Below, piece by piece: positions 37,355 through 54,796 of a stretch of 64,000 bases of DNA; positions within the stretch are counted from its first letter, which is position 1; the number at the start of each line of letters is the position of its first letter. This DNA comes from Comamonas sp. lk. Its GTDB lineage: Bacteria; Pseudomonadota; Gammaproteobacteria; Burkholderiales; Burkholderiaceae_C. The notes beneath the pieces are model-generated. The model saw only the letters and a program-made list of their open reading frames with translations. It ran no database searches and was not told where the DNA came from. A program made the position numbers and the translations under genes. Where the stretch lies: the NCBI RefSeq assembly GCF_900564145.1, contig NZ_UOOB01000002.1, positions 434,001 through 498,000 of the forward strand, in the 5' to 3' direction.

Positions 37355-37429
37355 GGGTGATTAGCTCAGCGGTAGAGCACTGCCTTCACACGGCAGGGGT
37401 CACATGTTCGATCCATGTATCACCCACCA
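37355..37429 (+). tRNA. tRNA-Val(CAC), copy 1
   Basis: A complete 75-base cloverleaf with encoded CCA. The acceptor stem is GGGTGAT/ATCACCC, the D stem GCTC/GAGC, the anticodon stem CTGCC/GGCAG with loop TTCACAC (anticodon CAC), and the T loop TTCGATC. Five bases separate it from copy 2, so the two share a precursor. Confidence 0.97.
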
Positions 37430-37434
37430 TTTTT

Positions 37435-37509
37435 GCGCGATTAGCTCAGCGGTAGAGCACTGCCTTCACACGGCAGGGGTCACATGTTCGATCCATGTAT
37501 CGCGCACCA
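37435..37509 (+). tRNA. tRNA-Val(CAC), copy 2 with a different acceptor stem
   Basis: A 75-base tRNA with encoded CCA and anticodon CAC. The body is identical to copy 1, but the acceptor stem is GCGCGAT/ATCGCGC: three base pairs (2-71, 3-70, 4-69) differ, with both strands changed together so pairing is kept. Confidence 0.97.
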
Positions 37510-37516
37510 AATAAAA

Positions 37517-37553
37517 GCCTCTTGAATCAACGATTCAAGAGGCTTTTTGTTTT
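37517..37553 (+). terminator. Rho-independent terminator of the tRNA operon
   Basis: A perfect 12-base stem GCCTCTTGAATC/GATTCAAGAGGC with an AAC loop is followed by TTTTTGTTTT. It starts seven bases after tRNA copy 2 and may also act on rrtA transcripts because an A-run precedes it. Confidence 0.93.
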
Positions 37554-37593: not shown

Positions 37594-38196
37594 CTATTGA
37601 GTCAATTCACGGCCACGCAACTGACGGCTACAGCCTGTCAGCGCACCCAGAATGCCGCCCAGAACTCCAAACCAGTGCGCCTGGGTAACGATGTATCCAC
37701 CGATCAGCCTTTGCTCGCGCAAATCGGGGCCGACCCAGGACTGCCAGCCCAGCCAACCCATCACTACAAGCAGCACCATGGCGGCCATGCCATCGCGATG
37801 TAGCAGCACCGGGGGCAGCAGCATCCAGACAATCAAACCGTAAAGCACGCCGGACAGGCCGACATAGTCATTGACTTGGGGCGAAATGCCCCACAGCAGC
37901 AGCGAGACCATAGCTCCAAGCACAGCCATGCTCGTGAGCAATCGCCGCACTGTCCACATGGCATCGGCCAGCGCGCAACATAACAACAGGCCACAGGCAT
38001 TGATTGCCATGTGAGCCCAGCTCAGATGCACCCAGTGGGCCGTCAGCATCCGCCACCATTGCCCTAATGCCTGGGCCTGCACCTCATAGCGCAGCAGCTC
38101 TCGCCAAGACAGTGGCAAAGCCTGTAGCACAGTCATCAACAAACACAGCGCCAGCGCACACGGCCACAGCGCAAAAGGGCCGGGGCCGGGCCTCAT
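37594..38196 (-). CDS. rrtA: Rhombosortase (rhomboid-family protease for GlyGly-CTERM proteins)
   Basis: A 200-residue, six-segment rhomboid of the short rhombosortase type. The expected intramembrane dyad is Ser115 (VGLSGVLYG) and His174 (AHWFGVLGG); the conserved WRMLTAHWVHLSWAHMAIN segment carries the His/Asn positions of the oxyanion region. Rhombosortases cleave the C-terminal GlyGly-CTERM tail of proteins exported by type II secretion (shown for Vibrio VesB). Its start overlaps ybaN by four bases, and two proteins with such tails are encoded about 2-5 kb upstream in the same string. The family call is strong; the pairing is inferred. Confidence 0.88.
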   Translation of the reverse strand: MRPGPGPFALWPCALALCLLMTVLQALPLSWRELLRYEVQAQALGQWWRMLTAHWVHLSWAHMAINACGLLLCCALADAMWTVRRLLTSMAVLGAMVSLLLWGISPQVNDYVGLSGVLYGLIVWMLLPPVLLHRDGMAAMVLLVVMGWLGWQSWVGPDLREQRLIGGYIVTQAHWFGVLGGILGALTGCSRQLRGRELTQ

Positions 38197-38627
38197 GCCT
38201 CAGGCTCTGGCCTCAGCCATAGCCAAACCAGCACGCAGGCCATGACAGCCAGCGCCAAACCGGTCAGCCATGGTTTTTCGGACAGATGGAAAATCAGCGC
38301 GGAGCTAAACAGCATGCTGACGCTTGCAGTCCATTTGACACGGCGGCTCACCTGCCCTCCCTCATCCCAGTTGCGCAATATGGGCCCGAACGTGGAGTGC
38401 GCATAGAGCCAGCCATGCAGTCTTGGCGAGCTGCGCATGGCGGCCCATGCCGCCATCAGGATGAAGACGGTTGTGGGCATGCCGGGCACCACGGCACCAA
38501 TCAAGCCCAGTACCACGCACAGCACAGCAAACGCCATCAAAAGACAGCGCAAAGGCAGGGACAGAGGCCGTGGGCTGGCAGCCTTTTCTGCGGATGACGT
38601 TTCGGGCGAGGAAGAAGGATCTGTCAT
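38193..38627 (-). CDS. ybaN: YbaN/DUF454 inner-membrane protein
   Basis: A 144-residue protein with a Ser/Pro-rich N-terminus and three or four membrane helices. The DUF454 signature is clear: LGLIGAVVPGMPTTVFILMA, AAMRSSPRLHGWLYAHSTFG and GPILRNWDEGGQVSRRVKW. The biochemical role of the family is unknown. It starts three bases after the gspN stop and overlaps rrtA by four, so it is tightly coupled to the gene string that includes heme oxygenase and the heme-type receptor. Confidence 0.9.
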   Translation of the reverse strand: MTDPSSSPETSSAEKAASPRPLSLPLRCLLMAFAVLCVVLGLIGAVVPGMPTTVFILMAAWAAMRSSPRLHGWLYAHSTFGPILRNWDEGGQVSRRVKWTASVSMLFSSALIFHLSEKPWLTGLALAVMACVLVWLWLRPEPEA

Positions 38628-38630
38628 GAG

Positions 38631-39491
38631 TCAAGGAAGCTGAGGGCGCACGATGCTCCACGCAATATCTCCGCCACGGTTTCCTATTAGGTTCAATATA
38701 TTGGCCAGCGCCGCATCTTGCCCAGGTTCTGCCTGAGCCTGCCCCTGAAAGCGCCAATGACCCGCAAGCTGCTGGCCTTTTCCGCTCAGGCGCAATGCAC
38801 CTTGCAACGTGCCCAGTTCAAACCCCAGACCCGTTCCCGATTCTGTACCCCGAGCGTCCAGGACCATGCGATAGCTGCCCAAGGGACGCAGAGTGGAGAG
38901 CCGGGACGAAAGCGACAAAGCCTTCAGCTCCAGGCTGCCGCGCATGGACGCCGCATCCAGGCTTTTTGACCATTGAAGAAAAGACGAAGACAGCTGAATA
39001 CGGCCTTCAAAGCTCAAGGTATTCCAGGGCGTACCCAAGCCCGCAAGAACCTGGGCCGGTAATTGCCAATCCAGAGCCGACAGCTGAAACAGCTGTTGAA
39101 ATGGCAGCCAGAACAGCTGTAGCCGCTGCTTCTGGCAGCAGGCATGCTCCAAGCTGACACCCATACCCCAGCCACGGTCTTGAGTGCCTGGTACCGCAGC
39201 GCTCAGGCCCGCATGCAGCTGCCAGCTCAATCGTCCCGGTAATGCCTGGGCATCCCGACTGCCTGCCCCGCCAGCCAAAACCAGCACTGCAGAGCCCTTC
39301 CAAATCGAGCCGCGTGCGTCCTGCAACAAGACGTGCCGCCCGCTCGCAGACGCAACGGTATCGGCGATCCAACGCGCAGGAAAAAACACCAGCAGACACA
39401 GCAGCCCGCCAACCAAGGCCCCCGCCAGAGCCCAGCGCCAAGGCGCACCGGCTGTTGCGGGCTTTTCCATCTCAGTTCTGCGCCATCGCAT
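38631..39491 (-). CDS. gspN: Type II secretion system protein N
   Basis: A 286-residue bitopic inner-membrane protein. One N-terminal helix (~20-42, ALAGALVGGLLCLLVFFPAR) precedes a periplasmic domain with the GspN blocks DARGSIWKGSAVLVL, LPGRLSWQL, GLGTPWNTLSFEGRIQL, SSRLSTLRPLGSYRM and a terminal NILNLIGNRGGD. In type II systems GspN is an accessory inner-membrane component. No other gsp gene is in the window, so this copy is an orphan here. It starts 12 bases after the heme oxygenase stop and is followed at once by ybaN and rrtA. ATG 39470 is an alternative start. Confidence 0.87.
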   Translation of the reverse strand: MRWRRTEMEKPATAGAPWRWALAGALVGGLLCLLVFFPARWIADTVASASGRHVLLQDARGSIWKGSAVLVLAGGAGSRDAQALPGRLSWQLHAGLSAAVPGTQDRGWGMGVSLEHACCQKQRLQLFWLPFQQLFQLSALDWQLPAQVLAGLGTPWNTLSFEGRIQLSSSFLQWSKSLDAASMRGSLELKALSLSSRLSTLRPLGSYRMVLDARGTESGTGLGFELGTLQGALRLSGKGQQLAGHWRFQGQAQAEPGQDAALANILNLIGNRGGDIAWSIVRPQLP

Positions 39492-39503
39492 GCCAGCTAT
39501 GGT

Positions 39504-40151
39504 CTAGAGCGCTGCTTCATGGGCTTCGCTGTGACCGGCAACCCGGCTTTCGGCAGGGCAAGGAAAGTGCTGCTCTAGCAAGCTGCCAAAACGGTCATAG
39601 GCCGCATTGGCTCCGGCGATCACCCGGTCTTGCGTCGCCGTGTCGCTGAGCGCTGGCGCATCCAGAGACGCCACAAATGCGCGCCAGGCCATAGCCCTGC
39701 CCTGCGGGTAGGCAGCCAGATTGCGGGCACCAAAAGTCTCCGACAAGCCCAACCGTTCCCTGGCCTCTTTGAACAAAAAAGCCGCTCCCAAGGTCGAGCC
39801 TTCCGACACATACAGCCAGCCCAAGGCCTCGGGCATGCCAACGCCTTCACTGGCCAGCGCGCTTTGAGGCACTGCAGCTCCCAAATCGGCCAGGTCCGCC
39901 AGAGAAGCTTCCTCACGCCCGCGCGCTTCCAGATCGGGAACCGCCTTCTTCACGGCGGTGTCATGAAACAAATGCTCCACATCTCGTTGAAACAGATACT
40001 GAGCCGCCACAAAGCGCGCATAGCTGCCAAGGTCCGCAAACGGATTGCCCTGCGCCATCAACTCGTGCATGCGCTCATGCTGCTGCGCCGTCTCGATCTT
40101 GAGCCGCTGAGACAGTCTGGACCCGCTCACGAGGTCGGTTTGAGCATTCAT
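39504..40151 (-). CDS. hemO: Biliverdin-producing heme oxygenase
   Basis: A 215-residue helical enzyme that opens heme to biliverdin, CO and iron in the cytoplasm. The proximal heme ligand should be His25 in ETAQQHERMHELM, and the distal helix carries GWLYVSEGSTLGAAFLF with its flexible Gly/Ser kink. AAGGAA precedes ATG 40151. It lies in the same orientation and gene string as the heme-type receptor upstream and would release iron from imported heme. Similarity is closer to the HemO/PigA/BphO group than to mammalian HO. Confidence 0.92.
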   Translation of the reverse strand: MNAQTDLVSGSRLSQRLKIETAQQHERMHELMAQGNPFADLGSYARFVAAQYLFQRDVEHLFHDTAVKKAVPDLEARGREEASLADLADLGAAVPQSALASEGVGMPEALGWLYVSEGSTLGAAFLFKEARERLGLSETFGARNLAAYPQGRAMAWRAFVASLDAPALSDTATQDRVIAGANAAYDRFGSLLEQHFPCPAESRVAGHSEAHEAAL

Positions 40152-40246
40152 ATGATTTCCTTACTTCCATTCAATCGATGAAGCGCCCCAAGCCATTGCA
40201 TCTCTGTGCAATCGGCCAGGGAAACGCTGGGCAGATCTACGTCGCC

Positions 40247-42157
40247 TCAGTTCTGCGACGGCTGCGATGTACGGCGGCGTGCCCAGGCCAGGACGGCCAG
40301 TGGCGCCAGCAGCAGCACGCTCAATGGTCCGCCACCGCCGCCATTGCTGCTGCCGCTATTTCCGCTGTTGCCCGTGTTACCAGTTCCGGTGTCAGGCTTT
40401 GTCACGGAAGTTGCTTGTACGCTGACTTTGCTGCTCACAGGCTGGCCATCGTTCTGGCTGCTGCAAGTCAGGGTGTAGCTGTTCTCGCCTTCGGCAGCCA
40501 ATACAACAGGTACCTTGCTGGCACTGGTTTGCTGCGCACCGCTCCATGCACCGCTGGCACTGCAGCTGCTGGCCTGGCTGGTAGCCCAGCTCAGCTCGAT
40601 GGTGGAGCCCACGGCAGCCGTAGTCACAGAGGCCGTCAGCGCCTGGCTGAATGCAGCAATGGGTAGTGGCACGTCGATGGAGAAAATCGTACCGTTGCCG
40701 GGCGCGGTCGTCGTCGTCGTCACCGGCTGGCCGTCACCACCGACGTTGGCCGCGCCATAGAGCTTCTGCACACCGCCCGCGACCGCGCCTGCGCTCAGGC
40801 CGGTCAGGGTTCCGCCTTCGCTACCCATGTCGAAACGGTGCAGGACTTCGTAGTTGTCGTCGGCGTGATCAGCAGCGGCTCCGACCTTGATCCGGTACAG
40901 CGTGCCCGCGCCATAGGGCGTGGCCAGGCCGGATTTTGGCGTATTCATGGTCGAACCATCGGTGGCCGTCGTACCGTAGATATTGCCGTCTGCGGCCAGC
41001 ACCAGCGGGCCTGATGGCGCACTGCCATCGGCCTGTGCCGTGCCATCTTTCGCCAAGGTGTCGCTGCCACGGAAGTAGTGCACAACGGCAAAGCTCTTGG
41101 GGTCGGACTTCTTCACGCGCCAGATCGTGCCGCCATAGCGGTTGTCCATCGTGTTACCCGCAGTGGGCGCGTTGAATTGCGTTGTACCGTAAAGCCATTC
41201 ACCAACCTCGACCATGCCGACGATGCGCTGGCCCTTGGCCGTGGGCTCGCCATCGCGTGCGCGCATAAAGGTGTGCAACAACTCGACCTTGGACGCATCG
41301 AGCGAGCCCTTGCCGGTAACGCCTTCCTCGATGGCTGCCTTACTCAGCTTGACCAACGTTCCCACCGAGCGTCCCTGATAGTCCGTGGTAAGCGCACTGT
41401 CCACCACTCCATCGGCCGATACCCCGGTCAGCACATACAAGGCCTGGTCCTTGCTGCTCCACACACTGGCCACCGGCGCGCCCCCCTTGGGGTGCAACTG
41501 CTTGTTGCCTTGCTGCTGCTCGTATTGGCAGAAATCCACTACTTTGGAGTAGCTGCGATCGGCATTCATGCGCCACAAAATATTGGCCGTGGTACTCACG
41601 CTGCAAGCCGATGCGGATTCGCCCGAGCCCATGTAGAGATTGCCTGCGGTGTCGAGTGCCATGCTTCCCAGTGGCTTGAAGTTGGGCGCTGGCAGCGCCA
41701 CAGCCTTGCCGTCCTTGATGCTGAAGACTACGGCTGCGGTTTCCCAGAAATTGCCACCCGGGGGAACGGCACCATTGCCAGAGACAAGAAAGCCGCCATC
41801 GGCAGTAGGCACCAGCGGGGTCGACCCTTGGTAGATGCTGCCCAGTAGTTCGAAGCGGTGGTTAGCACCCGTGGTGTCGAGGCCATAAACCGTGCCCTGC
41901 CCCCAGAACGCACCAGCACTCGGCGAGGCACCGAGGAAGGTGTGGCCATAGAGGCGGCCATCAGTAGCCAGCACTGGCGGTACAGCCGGCTTGGCACCTC
42001 CCTTGTTCTCGCCACCAAACTTGTGCAGCACCGTGGGCTTGAAGGCGGCTGGCAGCGTCTGAGCCACGGCATGCGCCAAGGGTAGAGCCAGTGCCAGAGC
42101 GGGAACTGCGACACGTGCAACACGCCGCAGAGCGGGTTGGATTGAATTCATGGCCAT
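40247..42157 (-). CDS. GlyGly-CTERM protein with GloVer-type repeats, copy 1
   Basis: About 636 residues. A signal peptide (MAMNSIQPALRRVARV to AVAQ) is followed by Gloeo/Verruco-type repeats, seen as VLATDGRLYG, ADGNIYGTTATDG and GTLYRIKVG, probably forming a beta-propeller. An Ig-like domain comes next (TIELSWATSQASSCSASG, with paired Cys). The tail is the GlyGly-CTERM triad: a glycine run at ~606-610, a hydrophobic helix (PLSVLLLAPLAVLAWA) and RRR. Such tails mark type II secretion cargo cleaved by rhombosortase. AGGAAAG fixes the start at 42157; the ORF extends 81 codons further without homology. Ligand unknown; a role in heme or hemoprotein capture is inferred from the neighbours. Confidence 0.83.
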   Translation of the reverse strand: MAMNSIQPALRRVARVAVPALALALPLAHAVAQTLPAAFKPTVLHKFGGENKGGAKPAVPPVLATDGRLYGHTFLGASPSAGAFWGQGTVYGLDTTGANHRFELLGSIYQGSTPLVPTADGGFLVSGNGAVPPGGNFWETAAVVFSIKDGKAVALPAPNFKPLGSMALDTAGNLYMGSGESASACSVSTTANILWRMNADRSYSKVVDFCQYEQQQGNKQLHPKGGAPVASVWSSKDQALYVLTGVSADGVVDSALTTDYQGRSVGTLVKLSKAAIEEGVTGKGSLDASKVELLHTFMRARDGEPTAKGQRIVGMVEVGEWLYGTTQFNAPTAGNTMDNRYGGTIWRVKKSDPKSFAVVHYFRGSDTLAKDGTAQADGSAPSGPLVLAADGNIYGTTATDGSTMNTPKSGLATPYGAGTLYRIKVGAAADHADDNYEVLHRFDMGSEGGTLTGLSAGAVAGGVQKLYGAANVGGDGQPVTTTTTAPGNGTIFSIDVPLPIAAFSQALTASVTTAAVGSTIELSWATSQASSCSASGAWSGAQQTSASKVPVVLAAEGENSYTLTCSSQNDGQPVSSKVSVQATSVTKPDTGTGNTGNSGNSGSSNGGGGGPLSVLLLAPLAVLAWARRRTSQPSQN

Positions 42158-42197
42158 TGACTTTCCTGGTGTGAAAAACGATGAGAAAAGAACACGC

Positions 42198-44321
42198 TCA
42201 ACCGAGCGTCTGGGAGTTGCGTGCGCGGCGGCGGTAGACTGCCAAGCCCGCCAAGGGAGCCAAAAGCCACAAAGCCAAAGGCCCGCCGCCGCCATTGCCG
42301 TAGGACACCTGATTGCCGTCTTCGGCGGTTGCCGGGGTGCTGACATAAACCACGGCGGCAGCAGAAACCTGGGCACCTGCTGCGCCGCCTGCCACATCAC
42401 AGGTCAGGGTGTAGCGATAAGTGCCTCGGGCCGGACGTAGATCGACGCTGCCCTGTGTAGCCACAGAACCCACCCAGTCACCTGCTGTCGATGCCGCCGA
42501 GCATTGCTTGGTGTTGTTGGTGATCCAGGTCAGCGAGACGGTTTCGCCGGCCTTGATCTCACCGGCGCTGGCTACCAGGCTTGCGTCAGCGCGCGGGGTT
42601 TCGGCCGAATCCACCGCGAGCTGGAAAATGGTGCCGAAATCGGTGGCCACGGTCAGGCCCGCACTGTTCAGATAGTGGCCGCCCATGGCCGTCACGCCAT
42701 ACAGACGGCCGTCGGAGCCAGTGCGCACGCCTACGGGCTTGCGACCATCCTTGCCAGAGAAGGAGTGCACCAGCTCAAAACCGCTTTGCGTCACCTGGCC
42801 GTCGCCATTCACCACCATGCTTGCCGGCCGGATACGGTAGACCGCACCGCAGCCGACTTCGGAGTTGGCTGCCGCGCTGGACGGCACGCACAGATTGCCA
42901 CCGCCGGACATGGTGGTGCCGTAGATGGCCCCATCAGCCCCCAGGGCCATGGGGCCGCGCGGCGTCGCACCGTCGGCATTGCTGAAGGTATGAAGTATCT
43001 GCAGCGGGCCGCCCGCCTTGGCAATGCGGTACAGCGCGCCATAGGGCTTGGGGCCGTCGTAATAGGGCAAATCCTTGATGTAACTCAGCGTGGCGCTTGG
43101 CGCCCACTTGCGCGAGCCGCAGGACGGGTTGTCGCGCGTGACGCTCTTGATATAAGTCCCGGTGATGCTGCTGTTGACATGCACATAGCAGTCGCCTACC
43201 GAAGTCCCGCCGTACAAATATCCATCACCACCATCGATCAGCGAAGACAGGCTGTGCTCCTGCCCGGAGCCCATGGTCCGGTTGGTCACATCGCCACCCG
43301 CCGTCACTCCCGCTTCGTACGGAATGCCGCTGGGATAGAGCACAAAGCCTTCGCTGTTGGCGTTGTCATGGATATTGATTTCGCCTTCGGCCAGCGTGAA
43401 GGTATGCAGCACGGCAAAGCCCGAGCCGTCGGCTGCATTGATGCGATAGAGCGTGCCCGTGGGCGTAGTGAGGGCTGTCGGCGTGGTGGGAGCCAGCGGC
43501 AGGCCACGGTTGTATGCGGTCACGCCATACAGCACACCATCCTTGCCCAGAATCAGGTCGTTTGCCGTCTGGCGCATGCCTGAAGGCCCGACGGAAAACT
43601 CATGCAGCGTGCTTACGCTGCCGGAGGCGATATGGAGCTTGAAAATCCGCCCCTGCCCCTTGGGCCCCTTGTCGATACCATACAGGTTGTCCTGCGCATC
43701 GATGACCAGTGCGCCATTGGGCGAGTACAGCTGGCCGCGCGTACCCTGCACCAAGGCGGAATTGGCACCGTCATAGTCGGTGCGGACAATAACGCCCAGA
43801 CCTACGGCAGGGGAATAGGAAATATCGCTGGGCTGGTTCTTGCCTGCATATTTTTGGCCGTTGATGGTCGTCATCACCGCATACAGGCTGCCGTCAGATG
43901 CGCGCACCGGCGTCCCCGAGATGCGGCCGTGCAGATCATTGGCCGGGTTATAGGCTACGCGCTCGTAGACCGAGACACCGGCTCGCATGGTGTACATGCC
44001 AAAAGAGGTGTACATCTGCGAGGACAGAATCGACGGCCCGCCGCCGTTGAAACCGCCAAACAGATAGCCGGCGCTTGAACCAGGACGCACCGCATACAAA
44101 GGCGGCGAACTTGGGTAACGGGCTCCGGGCCAGCCAATGGTTCCATCGGGCGTGGTGACGTCGTCACCGGCAGGGCGCAGCGCGGTGAGCATGGTCAGCT
44201 TGACGTCGCTTACCTTGGTCTGTGCAAGGGATGGCAAGGCCGCGCACAGCGCACCGGCGGCCAAGCAGGCAGCCACGCTGCGACGCCATGGCATGCCATG
44301 GGAAACGGAAAAGGACATCAT
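42198..44321 (-). CDS. GlyGly-CTERM protein with GloVer-type repeats, copy 2
   Basis: About 707 residues and a homologue of the next gene in the string. A signal peptide (MMSFSVSHGM to LPSLAQ) precedes a long propeller-like region with GKDGVLYGVTAYN, GADGAIYGTTMSGGG, GSDGRLYGVTAMGG and the strand motif LHTFSNADGATPRGP. An Ig-like domain (TVSLTWITNNTKQCSAAS) and a GlyGly-CTERM tail follow: glycines ~677-680, helix PLALWLLAPLAGLAVY, then RRRAR. GGAG places the start at 44321, 53 bases after the receptor stop; the copy 1 gene follows 40 bases on. The large ORF upstream extension is out of frame with the receptor and rejected. Function is unknown. Confidence 0.83.
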   Translation of the reverse strand: MMSFSVSHGMPWRRSVAACLAAGALCAALPSLAQTKVSDVKLTMLTALRPAGDDVTTPDGTIGWPGARYPSSPPLYAVRPGSSAGYLFGGFNGGGPSILSSQMYTSFGMYTMRAGVSVYERVAYNPANDLHGRISGTPVRASDGSLYAVMTTINGQKYAGKNQPSDISYSPAVGLGVIVRTDYDGANSALVQGTRGQLYSPNGALVIDAQDNLYGIDKGPKGQGRIFKLHIASGSVSTLHEFSVGPSGMRQTANDLILGKDGVLYGVTAYNRGLPLAPTTPTALTTPTGTLYRINAADGSGFAVLHTFTLAEGEINIHDNANSEGFVLYPSGIPYEAGVTAGGDVTNRTMGSGQEHSLSSLIDGGDGYLYGGTSVGDCYVHVNSSITGTYIKSVTRDNPSCGSRKWAPSATLSYIKDLPYYDGPKPYGALYRIAKAGGPLQILHTFSNADGATPRGPMALGADGAIYGTTMSGGGNLCVPSSAAANSEVGCGAVYRIRPASMVVNGDGQVTQSGFELVHSFSGKDGRKPVGVRTGSDGRLYGVTAMGGHYLNSAGLTVATDFGTIFQLAVDSAETPRADASLVASAGEIKAGETVSLTWITNNTKQCSAASTAGDWVGSVATQGSVDLRPARGTYRYTLTCDVAGGAAGAQVSAAAVVYVSTPATAEDGNQVSYGNGGGGPLALWLLAPLAGLAVYRRRARNSQTLG

Positions 44322-44374
44322 GCGGATCTCCAGCAAAGCAATGGGGGATGGGTCTGACATGCGCAGACCGGGAA

Positions 44375-46981
44375 TCAGAACGTGATCGACAAGGTGGCTG
44401 TGGCCGTGCGACCCGGGCCGATGAAGTAGCTGCCGCCCTGCATTTCTGAGTAGTTCAGGTCGCGCAGGTTGTTGATGGCGACACGCAAGATGGCATTCGA
44501 GGAAATCTCGTAACTGGCCCACAGATCGAATAACCGCCAGGACTTCTGGTTGTAGCGCTCGCCCTGTGCCGTCCAGACGCTGCTATTGGTGCTGGGTGCC
44601 TGAAAGCGCATGCGACCGCCGAGCGTGAGTTTTTTGTCGAGCAGTCGCACACCCGCGCTCAGGCTGGCGGTTTTCTTGGGCGGCAGCACATACCAGATGT
44701 TGGCGTCACCCGCCTGGCCCAGATTGTTGTTGGGGTAGCCCGTCAGGCTGCCCAGAGGAAAGGAGTCATACCCCCCTTTGCCGGTATTGACGAGCATGTG
44801 GGTGTAATTGAGGCTGCCGAACACGCGACCGTTGTCATAGTCGCCCTGCAGCTCCAGGCCTTTGCTGCGAAACGGGTCCTGCAGATTCACATAGGCATAC
44901 GGCCCCAGCAGGCCGCCGCCGGCGGTATCTATGGGCGACATGATGCGCGCCAGGGTCACATAGTCCTTGACCTTGTTGTTGAACCAGGCGGCCTTGACGC
45001 GCAGCTTGTCGCCCCGGCTGAGAACGTCGTCAAACATGCCGTTGGCACCGACTTCCCAGTTGCGCGAACGCTCGGCGCGCAAATCCGGATTGGGATAGTA
45101 AGGGAAGAGGCTGCCTGTGTGCTGACCCCACATCAGCGCTTCCGTCAGCGCCGGTGGGCGCATGCCCCGGCCTACGCTGGCGAACAGCTGAACAGCTTCT
45201 ATCGGTTTGAGCGCCAGTGCCAGGCGGGGCGCAAACGCACCGTCGTTTCGATCCGCCTTGAAGCGGGTGTACAAGGCCGTGGCAGGCGGGCGCACGCCCG
45301 GAGGATTGATCAGCGAGCCCACACGCATGCGACCATCGCCCTGCATGCCATACCAGTCATAGCGCAGGCCGCCGGTCAGCTCCAGCCAATCGCTGTGCAT
45401 CCAGTTGACTTCACCAAACAGACTGGCCACGGTGCGCTTGCCTTTGGGGGTAGCGCCCGAATACAAAGCCGTCGTTCCCGCATCGGCCCCCACGGACAGA
45501 GCCTGCGCCTGCGGATCGGTCCAGTCATGGAAGAACTCCGCTCCAGTCTTGACCAGTGCCGCATCCTTGGGCCCCCATTTCAGGCGGGAGGTGTTCTCCA
45601 GCGTGCCGCCCACAGTGCTGGTCTGGTAGCGCAGATCGTAGGCGTAAGAGTCCAGCGTGCCGCCCGCATAGCGGTGGGCCTGGTTGCGGGTGCGGGTGTA
45701 GTAGAGGCTGGACTTGAGGTCCACCAAGGCGTTTTCTGACGGATTCCAGGCATAGTTGGCCAGCAAGGTGTCGGTGCGGACATGGTTGAGAATGCCGCCG
45801 CCGCTGGCCGACTGCGGCTTCTCGCCAAACTTGGCATCCATGCCGATATAGCTGAACTTGATCTGCTGCTCGGGTGCAAAGCGCCAGGTGCTCTTGAGCA
45901 GGACCGAGGTCTGATCCTGGGAAGTCAGCTGGCTCACGCCATGGGTGGTCCCGTCCCTTTGACTCGAAGCTGATTCACGTCGGCCTTTTTCAAACTCACC
46001 CACTTTTTTTCGGCTGACCAGCATCACCATATCGAGGTCTTCGCTGGGTTTGAGACCCAGGGCGGCACTGCCGGCAAAGTGATAGCCATTGCTGCCGCTG
46101 GACAGGTTCAGGCGTGCCCCGCGGGTTTGCCCATCCTTGACCAGATCGTCGGCCTCCAGCGTGCGAAAGTTGACGACACCGGCAATCATTCCCGCACCGC
46201 CCACCGTGGAGGTCGGACCTTTGGAGATGTCCACGCCACCGATCATTTCCGGGTCCAGGTACACCGAGCCATTGGAGCCATGGCCGCTTTGCTGGTAGTT
46301 CTGGCGCGTACCGTCAATCATCACGTTGACGCGACCAAAGTCCTGCATGCCCCGGATATTCACCGAAACGCCAGGGTCCATGCGGCTTTGCGAGGTGTAC
46401 ACCCCTGGCACCTCGGCAAGCACATCGGCGGTGTTGCGCGGCGGCAGCCGGTCTATCTCTTCGCGTGTGACCACAGCCACCGAACCGGCCGTTTCAAACA
46501 CCTGCTGGCGGGCATCCTTTTTGGCGACCACGGTCACCTCGCCCATGTTGCGCTCCTGCGCTTGGGCTCGAACACCGTCTGGATTTTTCAGCGCGCGTGC
46601 CGGAGCCGATCGGATGCGCCATGCGCCCTGCCCTTCGCTTTGCGCTTGCAGAGGATGACTCTCTAGCAGCGAATCCAGCACGCCTTGGATCGTGGCCACA
46701 CCCTTGAAACCGCGGCTTTGCTTGCCCTGAACCAGTTCGGGGTCGTAGGCAATCATGATCTGCGCCTCGCGAGCCAGCTGGTTCAGCGCAGTCTCCACGG
46801 ACGCAGCCGGAATCGAGAACGAGCGCAAGGCCTTGTCGGAAGCTTGCGTGGCAGGCTGAGCATTCGCGACCAGCGGCAGCAGCGTGCCCGAAGTCAGGCT
46901 GACGGCAGCAGCAGCCATGGCGAGCACGGTGGGGCGCCAATGGGCAGGAGCACGCATGCGCGGCAGGCGACGGGAGGGCAT
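44375..46981 (-). CDS. TonB-dependent heme/hemoprotein receptor with STN signalling domain
   Basis: An 868-residue outer-membrane receptor. The signal peptide (to ~residue 42) is followed by an STN/secretin_N domain (~48-120, RSFSIPAASVETALNQLARE, IQGVLDSLLESHPLQ), then a plug with VVTREEIDRLPPRNTADVLAEV as the TonB-linked start, DFGRVNVMIDGTRQNYQQSG, DISKGPTST and a 22-strand barrel ending in Phe. The plug and barrel resemble the hemin/hemoglobin receptor group (BhuR/HasR type). The STN domain and the upstream sigma-FecR pair indicate transmembrane signalling on ligand binding. AAAGGA precedes ATG 46981. The ligand is inferred from family resemblance and hemO. Confidence 0.88.
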   Translation of the reverse strand: MPSRRLPRMRAPAHWRPTVLAMAAAAVSLTSGTLLPLVANAQPATQASDKALRSFSIPAASVETALNQLAREAQIMIAYDPELVQGKQSRGFKGVATIQGVLDSLLESHPLQAQSEGQGAWRIRSAPARALKNPDGVRAQAQERNMGEVTVVAKKDARQQVFETAGSVAVVTREEIDRLPPRNTADVLAEVPGVYTSQSRMDPGVSVNIRGMQDFGRVNVMIDGTRQNYQQSGHGSNGSVYLDPEMIGGVDISKGPTSTVGGAGMIAGVVNFRTLEADDLVKDGQTRGARLNLSSGSNGYHFAGSAALGLKPSEDLDMVMLVSRKKVGEFEKGRRESASSQRDGTTHGVSQLTSQDQTSVLLKSTWRFAPEQQIKFSYIGMDAKFGEKPQSASGGGILNHVRTDTLLANYAWNPSENALVDLKSSLYYTRTRNQAHRYAGGTLDSYAYDLRYQTSTVGGTLENTSRLKWGPKDAALVKTGAEFFHDWTDPQAQALSVGADAGTTALYSGATPKGKRTVASLFGEVNWMHSDWLELTGGLRYDWYGMQGDGRMRVGSLINPPGVRPPATALYTRFKADRNDGAFAPRLALALKPIEAVQLFASVGRGMRPPALTEALMWGQHTGSLFPYYPNPDLRAERSRNWEVGANGMFDDVLSRGDKLRVKAAWFNNKVKDYVTLARIMSPIDTAGGGLLGPYAYVNLQDPFRSKGLELQGDYDNGRVFGSLNYTHMLVNTGKGGYDSFPLGSLTGYPNNNLGQAGDANIWYVLPPKKTASLSAGVRLLDKKLTLGGRMRFQAPSTNSSVWTAQGERYNQKSWRLFDLWASYEISSNAILRVAINNLRDLNYSEMQGGSYFIGPGRTATATLSITF

Positions 46982-47134
46982 TGAAAAGTCCTTTCATGAA
47001 AGCCGCCGCATCAGACCGACCGAACGACAAGTCTGTTTTGAGGCGCTACTGTCAACAAGGACGAAGCAATTCGCCAAACCCGTAATTTTTTTGCAAAAAA
47101 TTTGTTGATATCAGCTGTACCAAGAAGTGCCAAG

Positions 47135-48115
47135 TCAGCCACGCGGCATCAGCGTGACCCAGTAGCGCGTGCGTCGGTGCAGCTCTATGGGCCAGGTTTT
47201 CTGCAGCAAGTCCAGGCTGCGCTCGGTGTCCTTCAAGCTGAACACTCCGGAAATGCGCAGCTGCGCCACACGCTCATCGCAAGCAAGATGACCGAGCCGA
47301 TAGCGACCTAGCTGCGCCACAAACACCGACAGCGGCATGCTGCGCGCCACCAGTACGCCATCCGTCCAGGCGTCGTCATCGCCATTACTTGCCTGCAGCT
47401 CATGAACCTGGCCGGTATCAAACCAGGCTTGCTGGCCCTGGCGCAGAACTCGCACTTCGGAAGAACCATGGGGCTGCAGCTCGACCGCATCGCTTTGCAC
47501 CTGCACCTGGGTGCCGTCTTCCTGAAGATGGGTTTGAAACCGGGTTCCCAGCGCCCGCACCCGCCCATGCATCGTCTGCACAAGCAAAGGTCTGTAATGC
47601 TGTGCACCGGTATCGGCACCCGAACTCAGAGCGATCCGCCCCTTGAGCAAAACCAGGCGGCGCTCATTCTCATCAAAGCGCAGATCCACCGCCGTCGCGG
47701 TATCCATGAGCAGCACCGAGCCATCGGCCAGCACCACGCGGCGCACTTCGCCCACACCGGTGCGCAGATCGGCAAGCAAGGCGCTTTCAGACCAAGGCTG
47801 GCGCAACAACAACGCCGTACATCCCGTGCCCATGGCAACGGCCAACAGTCCCATGGCCTTGCGCCGCCCCATGTGCTTGCGGGCGGCATCCATGGTTTGC
47901 TGCGCCAGGGCTGCCGGCACGGGCGGCATGGAGGCGAAACGGCCTTGAATGCACTGCAACCGCTCCCAGGCCAGGGCATGCTCGGGCGCGGCCTCTCTCC
48001 AGCGCAGGCACTCATCCCAGGCAGCTGGCGAGGCGTTGCCGGACTGAAGCCGCACCATCCATGCAATCGCCTGCTGAACGACGGCGGGCGAAGGCTCACG
48101 GGCAAAGCCGCTCAT
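47135..48115 (-). CDS. FecR-type anti-sigma/signal transducer
   Basis: A 326-residue inner-membrane regulator. The N-terminal cytoplasmic DUF4880-like region (QQAIAWMVRLQSGNASPAAW, HALAWERLQ) would bind the sigma factor; one membrane segment lies at ~residues 87-103. The periplasmic FecR domain has RTGVGEVRRVVLADGSVLLM, ALGTRFQTHLQEDGTQVQVQ and a C-terminal STN-like DERVAQLRISGVFSL that should touch the receptor STN domain. The start overlaps the sigma stop by four bases. The set sigma-FecR-receptor matches the HurI-HurR-BhuR and HasI-HasS-HasR layouts. Confidence 0.92.
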   Translation of the reverse strand: MSGFAREPSPAVVQQAIAWMVRLQSGNASPAAWDECLRWREAAPEHALAWERLQCIQGRFASMPPVPAALAQQTMDAARKHMGRRKAMGLLAVAMGTGCTALLLRQPWSESALLADLRTGVGEVRRVVLADGSVLLMDTATAVDLRFDENERRLVLLKGRIALSSGADTGAQHYRPLLVQTMHGRVRALGTRFQTHLQEDGTQVQVQSDAVELQPHGSSEVRVLRQGQQAWFDTGQVHELQASNGDDDAWTDGVLVARSMPLSVFVAQLGRYRLGHLACDERVAQLRISGVFSLKDTERSLDLLQKTWPIELHRRTRYWVTLMPRG

Positions 48116-48630
48116 GCCACAGCATCCAGATAAGCGATGCGATAGCAGTGGGCAAAAGCTGTCGCCATGTATTTTTCGACGGAGCTCAGGGACACACCCA
48201 GGCGTGCGGCCACCTCTTTGTAGGTCAGGCCGTCGAGCTGAGCCAGCAAAAAGGCACTGCGTGCACGGGTACCCAGGCCATCAAGCATGCGATCGATCTG
48301 CTCCAATGCCTGCAACACCATGGCACGCTCCTCGGGCGAGGGGCTCACCGGCTCGGGCATCAGCGCCAGAGTCTCCAGGTAGGCTCGCTCCAGCGACATG
48401 CGCCGGCAATGGTCGATGAGCACGCTGCGCGCCACGGTGGCAAGAAAAGCGCGCGGCTCCTGCAGTTCTGGCGGGCACTGTTTGAGAAGGCGCACAAATG
48501 TGTCCTGCGCCAGATCCGATGCTTCCTGCACGCAATGCACGCGCCGGTGCAGCCAATGCACCAACCATCCATGGTGGTCGCTATAAAGCGTATGTAAAAG
48601 CGAAGAGGAACTAGCTTGCGCACCAGCCAT
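48112..48630 (-). CDS. FecI-type ECF sigma factor
   Basis: A 172-residue iron-starvation sigma factor with region 2 (LHRRVHCVQEASDLAQDTFV to AFLATVARSVLIDHCRR) and region 4 (LDGLGTRARSAFLLAQLDG, YKEVAARLGVSLSSVEKYM). It should direct RNA polymerase to the receptor promoter when the receptor-FecR relay signals. A perfect 6-3-6 palindrome typical of Fur sites lies 37 bases upstream, so iron should repress it. It is divergent from the MBL gene. Confidence 0.93.
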   Translation of the reverse strand: MAGAQASSSSLLHTLYSDHHGWLVHWLHRRVHCVQEASDLAQDTFVRLLKQCPPELQEPRAFLATVARSVLIDHCRRMSLERAYLETLALMPEPVSPSPEERAMVLQALEQIDRMLDGLGTRARSAFLLAQLDGLTYKEVAARLGVSLSSVEKYMATAFAHCYRIAYLDAVA

Positions 48631-48666: not shown

Positions 48667-48681
48667 TGAGAATCGTTCTCA
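48667..48681. promoter_or_regulatory. Fur-box-like palindrome before the sigma gene
   Basis: TGAGAATCGTTCTCA is a perfect 6-3-6 inverted repeat matching the Fur core (TGAGAA-n3-TTCTCA). It lies between the divergent sigma and MBL genes, close to the sigma start. Confidence 0.8.
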
Positions 48682-49909: not shown

Positions 49910-50728
49910 TCAGTTGCCGGCGCCCAGTTCCTCATGGTGGCCGGACTCACCCTGCTTCCAGTACGAAGCAATGCGCATGCGCTTGGGGTTGGCGCCGGGC
50001 TTGCTCAGCATGCGCTTGCGCAGATCGGCCATGGCGCGGTTCTCGCCCGCCGCCCAGACAAAGCCTTCGCCCTGGGGCAGTTCCAGCGCATCCACGGCAT
50101 CGGCCAGCGAAGCCACCCATTGCAAATCCAGTGCGGCCTGGCTGCTCCAGGCACGCTGATCGGCAGCATTCGCCAGCTGCACGCGCACGATGGCGCGGCT
50201 GCCTGCGGGCAGTTCGGCCAGGCGGCGCTCAATGGCGGGCATGGCGGTTTCGTCGCCCAGCAGCACATGCCAGGGCAGGTCTGCCGCAATCACCAGACTG
50301 CCGCGCGGGCCGGCCAAGCCCAGCCACTGGCCCACGGGAGCGTTTTGCGCCCATTCCACCGCCGGGCCGGTGCCGTGGACGGCAAATTCCATTTGCAAGG
50401 TGTTGGCGGCCGCGTCAAAGTGCAGCGGCGTGTAGTCGCGCATGGTGGGGCGCTCGCCCTCCACATGCGGGCGGCCGTCGACGATTTGCGGCAAATTGGG
50501 TTTTTCCAGTCCGGCCTGCGGCAGGATGAGCTTGGTGTGATCGTCAAAGCCGGCACTGACAAAGCCTTCCAGCTCGGGGCCTCCCAAGGTCAGACGAATA
50601 AAGCCGGGGCTGGTTTGCTCACGCGCCAGCACTTGCACGTGGCGGGAACGGAAAGGATGGCGCACGCGCTGCATCACGGAGTCTGTGCCATGGCTGGCGA
50701 GGGCGCTGTTTGTCTCGTTGATGGACAT
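49910..50728 (-). CDS. Siderophore-interacting protein / ferric-siderophore reductase (ViuB-like)
   Basis: A ~272-residue FAD-dependent reductase of the SIP family, which frees iron from ferric siderophores in the cytoplasm. An N-terminal FAD-binding barrel contains FIRLTLGGPELEGF and the flavin motif MRDYTPLHF; the C-terminal NAD(P)H half has LLGDETAMPAIERRLAELP and VWAAGENRAMADLRKRM, with a late IASYWKQGESGHHEE. ATG 50728 is used; a GTG at 50755 would overlap one of the palindromes. It is divergent from marR, which probably represses it. Confidence 0.9.
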   Translation of the reverse strand: MSINETNSALASHGTDSVMQRVRHPFRSRHVQVLAREQTSPGFIRLTLGGPELEGFVSAGFDDHTKLILPQAGLEKPNLPQIVDGRPHVEGERPTMRDYTPLHFDAAANTLQMEFAVHGTGPAVEWAQNAPVGQWLGLAGPRGSLVIAADLPWHVLLGDETAMPAIERRLAELPAGSRAIVRVQLANAADQRAWSSQAALDLQWVASLADAVDALELPQGEGFVWAAGENRAMADLRKRMLSKPGANPKRMRIASYWKQGESGHHEELGAGN

Positions 50729-50740
50729 AGGAGTGAGTTT

Positions 50741-50787
50741 GTTGATAAAGTCCACCAAATATCCAAGATTAAGTTGACTTTGTCAAC
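50741..50787. promoter_or_regulatory. Two palindromic operators between the reductase and marR
   Basis: GTTGACTTTGTCAAC (50773-50787) is a perfect 6-3-6 palindrome. GTTGATAAAGTCCAC (50741-50755) matches it at most arm positions. Their centres are 32 bases apart, about three helical turns, on the same DNA face. Binding by the adjacent MarR protein is inferred. Confidence 0.65.
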
Positions 50788-50803
50788 AATAAATTCCCAC
50801 ACC

Positions 50804-51262
50804 ATGAATTCATCTTTGTCTGCCGACGTGTTTGACGCGCTGCATGAACTGGTTCGCCTGTTTCGTGCGCGCATGCGCAAATCCATGGAATCCGTACACC
50901 CGGAGCTGACCTTCAACGAGATTCGCGTGCTGGTCCATACGGGCCGACGCCCGGGTCTGACGCAAAAGGACATGGTGGAACACAGCCATGCCGACAAGGC
51001 GCAGATGGCGCGCACTCTGGCCCAGCTGGAAGAAAAAGGATGGCTGCTGCGCACGGCCAGCGAAAGCGACAAGCGCGTGCGCTGCCTGCAACTGAGCGCG
51101 CAGGGCCAGGCGCTGTATGTCCAGCTGCGCCAGCTGCGCGACAAGGTGGCCAGGGATTTGCTGCAGGATTGCCCCGAGTCCCAGCAAGCCCAGCTGCTGG
51201 CCTTGCTGCAACTGGCTGGCGACGGCGCCAAACGACGTGACAAACAACTACAGCAGCCATGA
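50804..51262 (+). CDS. MarR-family regulator
   Basis: A 152-residue winged-helix regulator: MNSSLSADVFDALHELVRLF, the HTH LTFNEIRVLVHTG to GLTQKDMVEHSHADKAQMAR, the wing LEEKGWLLRTASESDKRVRC and C-terminal dimer helices. ATG 50804 begins 17 bases after the palindrome at 50773-50787, which overlaps the expected promoter, so autoregulation is likely. The much longer ORF upstream is antisense to the reductase and rejected. Its effector is unknown; a link to siderophore use is inferred. Confidence 0.92.
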   Translation: MNSSLSADVFDALHELVRLFRARMRKSMESVHPELTFNEIRVLVHTGRRPGLTQKDMVEHSHADKAQMARTLAQLEEKGWLLRTASESDKRVRCLQLSAQGQALYVQLRQLRDKVARDLLQDCPESQQAQLLALLQLAGDGAKRRDKQLQQP

Positions 51263-51566
51263 TGCGGCGGAATGGACTGCGAATCGGAACCTCCAGTAAG
51301 CACTTACGCTTCTGGCCACGCATTGAATAGAGTTTGTCCGACAACAGGCATCTTTAATTGTTGCAGTGCAACAACAATCCATGAAGCCAGCGTAAATATT
51401 TGCAAAGAAACAAGTGGGAATCATTATCATTCGCAGCGTTCCGTATCCGCGTACGGCCTCAGCCAGCCATGGACTATGACCTGCACCGAAAGCGTCTGCA
51501 CACTTTCCGGAGGCAAGCAAAAAAATTACTCCTCGCCAGCCAGCAGTCTTCATCCAAGTCTTCATC
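51263..51566 (+). other. Leader region of the fiu gene
   Basis: This 304-base gap contains no convincing ORF. It holds a clear Fur-box-like sequence at 51417-51434 and should contain the fiu promoter. No terminator hairpin was seen after marR. Confidence 0.6.
51417..51434. promoter_or_regulatory. Fur-box-like site before fiu
   Basis: GGAATCATTATCATTCGC matches the Fur consensus of repeated ATAAT/ATTAT hexamers closely. It lies about 130 bases upstream of the fiu start. Confidence 0.75.
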
Positions 51567-53891
51567 ATGGCGAAACCCAACACATATATCCAAAGCCGTA
51601 AACACTCCCAGGCGGGCCTGACATCACCCGTCAGCCTGCTGGCGGCGGCCACCGCTCTGGCGGCCCTGGGCCTTCCGGCCCATGCTCAGTCCACAGACAA
51701 CGCTCCCGTCCTCAAGGAAGTGAAGGTCGAAAGCGCTGCCGATACGGGCTACACGCCGGGCACGATTTCCTCGCCCAAGTTCACCCAGCCTCTGGTCAAC
51801 ACCACGCAGACCGTCTCCATCATCAAGGAGCAGCTGTTGCAGGAGCAAGGCGCGACCACGCTGACCGAAGCACTGCGCAATGTGCCCGGCGCCGGCACCT
51901 TCTACGCAGGCGAGAACGGCAACACCAGCACGGGCGATGCCGTATACATGCGCGGCTTTGACAGCTCCAGCAGCATTTATGTGGATGGCGTGCGCGACAT
52001 AGGCGCCATCTCGCGCGATATGTTTAATATCGAGCAGATCGAAGTCACCAAAGGCCCGGCCGGCACCGACTACGGCCGCAGCGCGCCCACCGGCGCTATC
52101 AACCTGGTGAGCAAGCAGGCCAATCTGACCAACAGCTTTGGCGGCTCCCTGGGCTTTGGCTCGGCCAGCTACAAGCGCGGCAATGTGGACCTGAACCGCG
52201 TGATCAATGCAGAAACCGGTACGGCCGTGCGTCTGAATGCCATGGTGCAAGACTCCGGCGTGGCCGGTCGCGACCGCGTGGCCAACGACCGCTGGGGCAT
52301 TGCACCCTCGTTCGCCTTTGGCCTGAACTCTCCCACCCGCGTGTTCGTGAACCTGCTGCACGTCAAGCAGGACAATGTGCCCGACGGCGGCGTGCTGACC
52401 ATAGGCCTGCCTGGCTATAGCTCGCCAGACCCCGCCAATCGCCCTTACCTCACCGGTGCGTCGCGCGTCAACAGCAAGAACTTCTACGGCACGGCCTCCG
52501 ACCGCGACAACGTGACCGCCGACATGGCCACGCTGCGTGTGGAGCATGATTTCTCTGCCACCACCAAGCTGCGCAACACCACGCGCTGGGGCCAGACCAA
52601 GCAGGACTATCTGCTGACCGCCTTCATGGCAGCAGGCACCGGCACCAACAGCATCCAGACACCCAACGCGAATGACCCCTCCACCTGGAGCATGGCGCGC
52701 AACATCAATACCAAGGATCAGGTCAACCGCATCCTGACCAACCAGACCAATCTGAACACCAGCTTTGCCACCGGCACGGTGCGCCATGATCTGAGCACCG
52801 GCCTGGAACTGACGCGCGAGGAGCAGACCAATTACGGCCTGGCCACCGCCGGCGTCGTGCCCCGCGTCAGCGTGTACAACCCCGACTCCAGCATCTATCT
52901 GCCTGCCTATCTGCGCAACGGCGCCGACAGCAAGGGCACGACAGACACGGTGGCCCTGTATGCCTTCGACACGCTCAAGTTCAACGAGCAATGGCAGGCC
53001 AATGTGGGTCTGCGCTGGGATCACTACAAGTCTTCCTACAACGCCAGCGCCGTCTGCACGGCGACCTCCACCACCCAGCCTTGCGGCAGCAATCCTGTAG
53101 GCACCGTGGTGCACACCACCTCGGACGGCCTGTCCAAGACCGGCAATCTGCTGAGCTGGAAGGCCGGCCTGCTCTACAAGCCCGCACCCAACGGCAGCGT
53201 GTACCTGAACTACGCCCTGTCCCAGCAGCCACCGGGCGGCAACAACTTCACGCTGTCTGCCGTGGCCAACAACTCGGCCAATCCCAATATGGATCCGCAA
53301 AAGGCCAAGACTGCCGAAATCGGTACCAAGTGGGAGCTGCTGGACAAGAACCTGCTGCTGACCGGCGCGCTGTTCCGCACCGAAGTCACCAATGAAATCG
53401 TGACCAACCCCGACGGCAGCGTGAACCAGACCGGCAAGAAGACCGTGCAAGGCCTGGAGCTGGGCGTGATCGGCCAGATCAGCAAGGCCTGGGGCATGAG
53501 CGCCGGCTACACCGTGCAAAACACCAAGGTGGCCAACGGCGCCAACGTGGCGGCCGATGCCAGCAGCGGCCTGACCTACACCCCCAAGAACGCCTTCAGC
53601 CTGTGGAGCACGTACCAGCTGCCCTTTGGCCTGACGATCGGTGGCGGTGCACGCTACTCCGGTGGCCTCAAGCGCGGCACGGACGGTGCCGTGGGTACGC
53701 CCAACTTCACCGAGTCGTACTGGGTGGTGGACGCCATGGCCAGCTACCGCGTCAACAAGAACCTGGACATTCAGCTGAATGTCTACAACCTGTTTGACAA
53801 GAGCTATGTGGCAGCCATCAACAAGAGCGGCTACCGCTACTTCCCCGGCATTTCGCGCTCGGCACGTCTGACGGCCAACTTCAGGTTCTAA
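51567..53891 (+). CDS. fiu: Catecholate siderophore receptor Fiu
   Basis: A 774-residue TonB-dependent outer-membrane receptor. After the signal peptide (to ~AQ41) the plug carries EQGATTLTEALRNVPGAGTF, YAGENGNTSTGDAVYMRGFD and VTKGPAGTDYGRSAPTGAIN; the barrel has LTIGLPGYSSPDPANR, YALSQQPPGGNNFTL and YNLFDKSYVAAINKSGYRYF and ends in Phe. Many of these segments match E. coli Fiu, recalled from memory, which takes up ferric catechols and monocatechol siderophores. The next gene is piuC/ybiX, exactly as in the E. coli fiu-ybiX pair. A Fur-box-like site lies upstream. Confidence 0.93.
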   Translation: MAKPNTYIQSRKHSQAGLTSPVSLLAAATALAALGLPAHAQSTDNAPVLKEVKVESAADTGYTPGTISSPKFTQPLVNTTQTVSIIKEQLLQEQGATTLTEALRNVPGAGTFYAGENGNTSTGDAVYMRGFDSSSSIYVDGVRDIGAISRDMFNIEQIEVTKGPAGTDYGRSAPTGAINLVSKQANLTNSFGGSLGFGSASYKRGNVDLNRVINAETGTAVRLNAMVQDSGVAGRDRVANDRWGIAPSFAFGLNSPTRVFVNLLHVKQDNVPDGGVLTIGLPGYSSPDPANRPYLTGASRVNSKNFYGTASDRDNVTADMATLRVEHDFSATTKLRNTTRWGQTKQDYLLTAFMAAGTGTNSIQTPNANDPSTWSMARNINTKDQVNRILTNQTNLNTSFATGTVRHDLSTGLELTREEQTNYGLATAGVVPRVSVYNPDSSIYLPAYLRNGADSKGTTDTVALYAFDTLKFNEQWQANVGLRWDHYKSSYNASAVCTATSTTQPCGSNPVGTVVHTTSDGLSKTGNLLSWKAGLLYKPAPNGSVYLNYALSQQPPGGNNFTLSAVANNSANPNMDPQKAKTAEIGTKWELLDKNLLLTGALFRTEVTNEIVTNPDGSVNQTGKKTVQGLELGVIGQISKAWGMSAGYTVQNTKVANGANVAADASSGLTYTPKNAFSLWSTYQLPFGLTIGGGARYSGGLKRGTDGAVGTPNFTESYWVVDAMASYRVNKNLDIQLNVYNLFDKSYVAAINKSGYRYFPGISRSARLTANFRF

Positions 53892-53897
53892 ACAGCA

Positions 53898-53997
53898 CCC
53901 CCTGAGGCGCTAGGCGCCCTCCCCCTCTCTCGCTTCGCGGGAGAGGGGGACGACATCTTCGCTGCGGGGCGGCGGGGCCGCCTAGGCCCTTGCTTGA
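53898..53997 (+). repeat. Palindromic intergenic repeat, plus-oriented copy
   Basis: A ~100-base element running CCCCCTGAG, then a strong hairpin (CCCCCTCTC, TCGCTTCGCG, GAGAGGGGG), then GCTGCGGGGCGGCGGGGCCG and CCTAGGCCCTTGCTTGA. A near-identical copy lies inverted at 54934-55031. It begins seven bases after the fiu stop. Confidence 0.9.
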
Positions 53998-54787: not shown

Positions 54788-54796
54788 TGCGCGCAT

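Follow-up and report, generated by a model that had tools for sequence, protein, structure and literature searches.

Among the described systems closest to the locus reported here is the Has heme-acquisition system of Serratia marcescens, whose genes lie in the order hasI-hasS-hasR-hasA-hasD-hasE-hasB; according to the available text, the sequence TTTACGGGTTT in the −35 regions of hasS and hasR is the likely target of HasI, with mutagenesis support ahead of hasS (PMC9249621). The locus lies in a 64-kb stretch of the genome of Comamonas sp. lk (contig NZ_UOOB01000002.1, positions 434,001 to 498,000; hereafter the window), a genome of 4.9 Mb in two contigs, with other Comamonas as its same-genus relatives. 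It is a block of nine minus-strand genes (37594–48630) which encode, in order, a FecI-like sigma factor, FecR, a heme receptor, two GlyGly-CTERM proteins (GloVer1 and GloVer2), a heme oxygenase, a GspN, a YbaN protein and a rhombosortase (rrt). We consider it fairly probable that the block is a Has-type heme-acquisition operon in which the hemophore-and-exporter part (hasA-hasDE) has been exchanged for two rhombosortase-anchored proteins exported by the type II secretion system (T2SS), together with a dedicated GspN. As far as the available text on Serratia goes, the likeness covers the order of sigma factor, anti-sigma factor and HasR-type receptor (here with an STN domain), a Fur-type site ahead of the sigma gene, a HasI-type target ahead of the receptor, and a secreted-protein gene with secretion helpers behind the receptor (PMC9249621). 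Unlike Serratia Has, this block holds two GloVer/GlyGly-CTERM proteins, heme oxygenase, GspN, YbaN and rhombosortase. None of its nine genes is hasD, hasE or hasB, the rest of the genome not having been searched for hasD and hasE. HasA (PF06438) had no match in the genome at E ≤ 1.

Other described systems share further parts with the block. The hemO cluster of Acinetobacter baumannii (HphA, HphR and the Slam protein HsmA) likewise unites a heme oxygenase, a TonB receptor and a secreted heme scavenger, HphA, with its dedicated export factor; HphA, however, is exported by Slam, and rhombosortase, GspN and GloVer are unmentioned in the available part of its description (PMC8560813). Dedicated GlyGly-CTERM/rhombosortase pairs, in which cargo and enzyme genes lie close together as they do here, were reported in 2011, and in C. 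testosteroni KF-1 two consecutive GlyGly-CTERM targets were placed fewer than five genes from a rhombosortase (PMC3237569). As described in the available text, those pairs differ from the present one, which lies inside an apparent heme operon that includes an additional gspN; the main text of that paper nowhere uses heme, iron, TonB or GspN as whole words. The rhombosortase cargo VesB of Vibrio cholerae receives a glycerophosphoethanolamine moiety (PMC6219818). In A. baumannii, the available text of PMC12802150 reports that T2SS surface lipoproteins depend on GspN while soluble effectors do not, and proposes that GspN shields acyl chains. The block resembles the GspN-dependent surface lipoproteins InvL and PulA of that account in tying GspN to lipidated, surface-anchored T2SS cargo; InvL and PulA have an N-terminal lipobox, whereas here the lipid would be C-terminal and GspN is encoded by an additional copy away from the T2SS locus. 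GspN and EpsN are absent from the rhombosortase papers PMC6219818 and PMC13393428, and rhombosortase appears in PMC12802150 only in the reference list. The preliminary description of this DNA had held that no described system combines these parts. No title or abstract was found that links a rhombosortase cargo neighbourhood to heme or GspN, subscription papers being mostly outside the scope of the search, and to that extent the statement stands; its cargo/rhombosortase component was already in print for C. testosteroni (PMC3237569). The parts are known and the combination is new.

The nine same-strand genes in the order first proposed have been borne out by profile matches over curated cut-offs and by recurrence in four other genomes (Table 1). 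In the sigma factor, Sigma70_r4_2 (54.1 bits) and Sigma70_r2 (52 bits) both exceeded their curated cut-offs in the profile search, as did the FecR profile in the anti-sigma factor (59.3 bits). The sigma and FecR genes overlap by 4 nt and a gap of 153 nt separates FecR from the receptor, followed by gaps of 56 nt to GloVer1, 40 nt to GloVer2 and 95 nt to the heme oxygenase; from there to the rhombosortase the intervals are 12, 3 and −4 nt. The most likely start codons of GloVer1 and GloVer2 are the ATGs at 44318 and 42157. The nearest solved structure of the heme oxygenase is Pa-HO. The best solved relatives of the receptor are HasR chains (345.5 bits over residues 45–861), and by sequence the receptor is a HasR relative, of the hemophore-binding kind. 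Its plug residue H234 aligns with HasR 189 and its loop residue H621 lies one column off HasR 603, positions which we take to be the heme ligands. Both histidines are kept in all five blocks and in a 54%-identical receptor of a further genome (G447, below), and not in the receptor of another heme cluster of G447 (one aligned). The HasR ligand numbers were also looked for in PMC11633176, where none of the terms is present.

Table 1. Features of the heme block and its borders in the window (a point marks a feature given without strand)
Feature	Position	Strand	Basis or remark
Fur-box-like palindrome TGAGAATCGTTCTCA (on +), upstream of sigma gene	48667..48681	.	conserved sequence
ECF (extracytoplasmic function) sigma factor, FecI/HasI type	48112..48630	-	NF009180 204.9 bits, cut-off 184
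FecR/HasS-type anti-sigma factor	47135..48115	-	PF04773 and PF16220
Promoter-like stretch, core TTACGGGTTT, ahead of receptor	47042..47086	-	45 nt, 3 variable positions in 5 blocks
HasR-type TonB-dependent heme receptor with STN signalling domain	44375..46981	-	TIGR01785 499.5 bits, cut-off 316.85
GloVer1, signal-peptide-like N terminus, GlyGly-CTERM tail	42198..44318	-	TIGR03803 87.1 bits, cut-off 44; TIGR03501
GloVer2, signal-peptide-like N terminus, GlyGly-CTERM tail	40247..42157	-	TIGR03803 47.6 bits, cut-off 44; TIGR03501
Heme oxygenase, PigA/Pa-HO like	39504..40151	-	PF01126 81.8 bits; PDB 1sk7 Pa-HO 161.8 bits
GspN2, second GspN of the genome	38631..39491	-	T2SSN PF01203 70.6 bits
YbaN/DUF454 protein	38193..38627	-	PF04304 122.8 bits
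Rhombosortase	37594..38196	-	TIGR03902 130.6 bits, cut-off 84; Rhomboid 48.3 bits
16-pair hairpin, terminator-like	37513..37547	.	46 nt past rhombosortase

The preliminary description had proposed a search of genomes for the conserved order receptor-GloVer-heme oxygenase-gspN-ybaN-rhombosortase, and four other Comamonas genomes (loci L033 to L036) have been found to carry it, as part of an identical nine-gene order (n = 5 with the window). Protein identity to the window is 71–96% overall: 90–96% for the sigma factor, 77–88% for FecR, 89–95% for the receptor, 85–96% for GloVer1, 74–91% for GloVer2, 86% for the heme oxygenase, 71–83% for gspN, 76–92% for ybaN and 72–76% for the rhombosortase. 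The block, of 11.1 kb, is present in two chromosomal settings. The match between the window and L033, in a genome assigned to the C. testosteroni group solely by DNA identity, spans 48689–37618; it sets in immediately ahead of the Fur-like palindrome and breaks off 24 nt before the rhombosortase stop, and the match ends of L034 and L035 nearly equal these. Beyond the rhombosortase, the flank in the window is shared with C. suwonensis (L036) and consists of an acyl-CoA ligase, a hydrolase, an MscS-like gene and tandem tRNA-Val; comparison on the sigma side is limited by the end of the C. suwonensis contig. The flanks of L033 to L035 are common to each other and different from that of the window, and none of six window flank proteins tested was found in them. 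A chance neighbourhood has been rejected because five genomes share the order and the block stands in two chromosomal contexts. Plasmid carriage was also considered and rejected, positions 37594–39600 being without match in 72,556 plasmid records. The tandem tRNA-Val genes (window 37355–37509) stand directly beside the block in the window and L036, not in L033 to L035, and are a possible insertion site.

In a genome search with TIGR03501 (cut-off 15.5), GloVer2 (20.6 bits, 40271–40336) and GloVer1 (19.0 bits, 42225–42290) were the only GlyGly-CTERM proteins over the cut-off, a third match falling below it with 13.4 bits. By hmmscan of the proteins, GloVer1 scored 14.3 bits, just under the cut-off, and TIGR03501 was not among the GloVer2 rows at E ≤ 0.1; the GlyGly motif, hydrophobic helix and basic end are present in the tails. 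The rhombosortase is in turn the sole match to its family in the genome, and its residues S115 (of GLSG) and H174, which we take to be the catalytic pair, are invariant in all five blocks. Rhombosortases over the cut-off were found in five of 61 genomes, all within the 37 Comamonas genomes searched, and those five carry the block. Cargo beside rhombosortase is ordinary in this order: among 20 fetched order-level loci with a rhombosortase over the cut-off (7–20 kb each), 17 have a GlyGly-type tail within 4 kb by our own regular expression, one extra tail (L054), that of the rhombosortase itself, being left out. An unlike tail was seen in another genus, where a GloVer protein (L104:10007-11680) has a Gly-rich tail holding a Cys ahead of the hydrophobic helix. 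In another family, some 4.6 kb separate a heme oxygenase-like frame (L065:16464-17210, E 4e-10) from a rhombosortase that has a GlyGly-type cargo of its own.

The GspN of the block (GspN2) sits in the heme block and outside the T2SS locus. The other gspN of the genome (C1:904708-905337; 41% identical to GspN2) is beside gspD (C1:902617-905337), the only gspD over the cut-off in the genome; T2SS genes besides gspD and gspN were read from open reading frame positions and not by profile. In a sample of 250 genomes of the order, 98 had gspN, and the single one with two copies was the window's own. Among 53 Comamonas genomes (E ≤ 1e-8), six had two gspN, 34 had one and 13 had none, the two-copy genomes being those five with the block plus G447, which carries a split form. 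In the 15 Comamonas genomes outside the rhombosortase search (below) the block was taken as absent, no close heme oxygenase or receptor having been found (at most 17 candidate frames per genome scored for one search). In a GspN tree of 27 rows, one of them (ord_G043) a 31-residue mis-cut kept in, GspN2 forms one side of a 100/100 branch, and its attachment among family-level GspN is not resolved. GspN2 has a T2SSN domain, and its model (mean predicted local distance difference test score, pLDDT, 67, weak) has one N-terminal membrane helix at 17–35 followed by strands. A common neighbourhood of gspN and rhombosortase in the order was considered and rejected, since none of the 20 fetched rhombosortase loci has a gspN by a 24-sequence profile.

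Split and partial loci have also been found. G447, which the genome set assigns to the same genus, has sigma, FecR, receptor, GloVer1 and GloVer2 together without the rest of the block at one locus (L067), and at another (L044/L069) a piece of the sigma gene and a piece of the heme oxygenase gene followed by intact-looking gspN2-ybaN-rrt. The split therefore suggests two associations, one of the GloVer genes with the HasR-type receptor and one among gspN2, ybaN and rrt. At L069 the loss lies between the sigma gene and the heme oxygenase, and the T2SS gspN is about 20 kb from gspN2. In Aquabacterium, a heme oxygenase gene overlaps a rhombosortase gene at one locus (L046) and ybaN precedes a rhombosortase gene at another (L045), both without gspN. 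The overlap in L046 (9312–10579, a metagenome-assembled genome) is near a groEL-like frame, and a groEL-like frame, GroEL being recognised by eye, also flanks the G447 remnant.

Regulatory-type sites have been found at two places in the block. Ahead of the sigma gene, AATTGAGAAYGATTCTCAGTAAT is unchanged in all five blocks; the Fur-like 15-mer is perfect in L033 to L035, and the window and L036 each differ from it at 2 positions. Ahead of the receptor, the core TTACGGGTTT agrees at 10 of 11 bases with the −35 target reported for HasI in Serratia and is conserved in 5/5 blocks. This 10-base core occurs once in the window (0.03 expected). With one mismatch, four HasI-like sites occur there, and therefore only the exact core and its conservation have been used. 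The block is apparently under iron control. The gap of 95 nt between GloVer2 and the heme oxygenase is poorly conserved across blocks and holds no conserved promoter-like stretch and no sigma-70-like match. Taken with the gene order, the two settings and the exclusive pairing of cargo and enzyme, the Fur-like box and the HasI-like site give good support to the earlier proposal of one system, here read as a co-inherited heme unit that has GlyGly-CTERM cargo and a rhombosortase of its own; as judged from sequence, the genomic case for one unit is strong.

In the mechanism that we propose, iron-loaded Fur would repress the sigma gene. When the receptor is engaged, FecR would free the sigma factor, and the HasI-like promoter would fire for the receptor and the genes behind it. 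GloVer1 and GloVer2 would cross the inner membrane by Sec, be held by the GlyGly-CTERM helix and be cut by the operon's rhombosortase, with a lipid added at the C terminus. GspN2 would then hand the lipidated proteins to the T2SS for surface display, where, next to the HasR-type receptor, they would capture heme or hemoproteins; the heme would enter and be opened by the heme oxygenase. Families, order, conservation, the exclusive cargo-rhombosortase pairing, the second gspN and the regulatory-type sites are read in the sequences; beyond these we infer co-transcription, anchoring, the T2SS route, heme binding by the GloVer proteins and the task of GspN2. The known families would accommodate T2SS export, anchoring, and GloVer proteins that act as hemophores or hemoprotein receptors, and carriage of the lipidated GloVer proteins would be the simplest reading of GspN2. 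A wider proposal, which we hold with more doubt than confidence, is that GspN is a periplasmic lipid-shielding carrier for rhombosortase-lipidated T2SS cargo anchored at the C terminus, and that the operon has a private GspN-rhombosortase pair displaying a new class of tethered beta-propeller hemophores by a HasR-type receptor, in replacement of a HasDE-exported hemophore. If true, this would join two lines so far apart, GspN for N-terminally lipidated T2SS cargo (PMC12802150, 2025, in its available text) and rhombosortase with a C-terminal lipid-type moiety (PMC6219818, 2018). A tethered, T2SS-borne kind of hemophore would be added to the HasDE-exported (HasA) and Slam-exported (HphA) kinds. 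A genome with two GspN, one of which is restricted to an operon that also encodes its single rhombosortase and the only two cargoes over the cut-off, offers a natural test of whether the choice of GspN follows the lipid anchor. The block points to surface-tethered heme capture and makes the lipid-carrier role of GspN testable.

Several observations weigh against the Has-type operon with tethered cargo. The GloVer1 model has a mean pLDDT of 50, and the conserved GloVer histidines are those of the LHxF of the repeats. The GspN2 model had no solved relative in the PDB at E ≤ 0.001, and no literature was found that tests GspN on rhombosortase cargo. The control genomes of the HasA search held no HasA over the cut-off, so that its sensitivity is not shown. 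The co-occurrence of gspN2 and the block may be one event, with one origin kept with the block, given the relatedness of the block genomes and the single clade formed by GspN2. The rhombosortase search covered 37 of the 53 Comamonas genomes, and a rhombosortase was also found in G447. The diverged GloVer locus of G447 has no Fur-like site (2 mismatches allowed) and no HasI-like site (1 allowed). Some transcripts could terminate at a hairpin that stands, with a pyrimidine-rich tail behind it, at the GloVer1 end and is conserved in all four loci compared; terminator-like sites in all numbered 13 found vs 8.9 expected. In one block genome (G013, L034:8367-10544), one in-frame stop interrupts GloVer1, either a draft error or real.

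Other explanations of the block have been weighed against this one. GloVer1 and GloVer2 may be iron-starvation surface proteins (adhesin, carbohydrate binder or hydrolase) anchored by the rhombosortase, with heme imported by the receptor alone. Some known receptors take up free heme with no hemophore involved, and the Foldseek rows of the low-confidence GloVer1 model include lectins, galactose oxidase and lactonases. The best 50 of its 186 matches at E ≤ 0.001, which can be read as fold class only, are mostly to proteins that we take to be beta-propellers, some with PKD/immunoglobulin (Ig)-like parts; the GloVer1 profile had no match in solved structures at E ≤ 1, and the fold is probably, on this model, a beta-propeller with a C-terminal Ig-like domain. 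Yet the gene of the HasR-type receptor is followed immediately by both GloVer genes in all five blocks, and again at the diverged G447 locus, which lacks the rest, and the identity of GloVer1 is near that of the receptor and above those of gspN and rrt, although GloVer2 falls to 74% in one genome. We regard surface proteins without heme capture as unlikely.

Rather unlikely, in our judgement, is that GspN2, YbaN and rhombosortase are passengers of an iron-starvation transcript, with GspN2 serving other T2SS cargo or general lipid transfer and having no link to GloVer. GspN is AsmA-like, and such proteins have been implicated in phospholipid transport, according to the available text of PMC12802150; the two Aquabacterium loci (hmuO-rrt and ybaN-rrt) and the 20 order-level rhombosortase loci all lack gspN. 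Against this, a second gspN has been found only with this block, and G447 keeps gspN2-ybaN-rrt where the upstream part is lost. That the block consists of two or more adjoining transcription units with separate functions, from sigma to GloVer1 or GloVer2 and from there to the rhombosortase, seems quite improbable. The length of the gap between GloVer2 and the heme oxygenase, the conserved hairpin at the GloVer1 end and the split in G447 would agree with it, as would one chance-level sigma-70-like match near the gspN end (38724–38695; 2 found, 2.7 expected), but that gap lacks the promoter-like features sought, and the cargo of the rhombosortase lies in the first part.

A few observations concern the surroundings of the block and other heme clusters. 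A hairpin similar to that past the rhombosortase is found in L036, and none like it in L033 to L035. Three Comamonas genomes (L068, L070 and L071) have a different sigma-FecR-receptor-heme oxygenase cluster, with no GloVer, gspN or rhombosortase match there, and one-mismatch Fur-like sites also occur near such heme clusters (L070 and L071). Adjoining the block, the window encodes at 49910–57207 a siderophore-interacting protein and two more TonB-dependent receptors, with a 3-mismatch Fur-like site at 51415.

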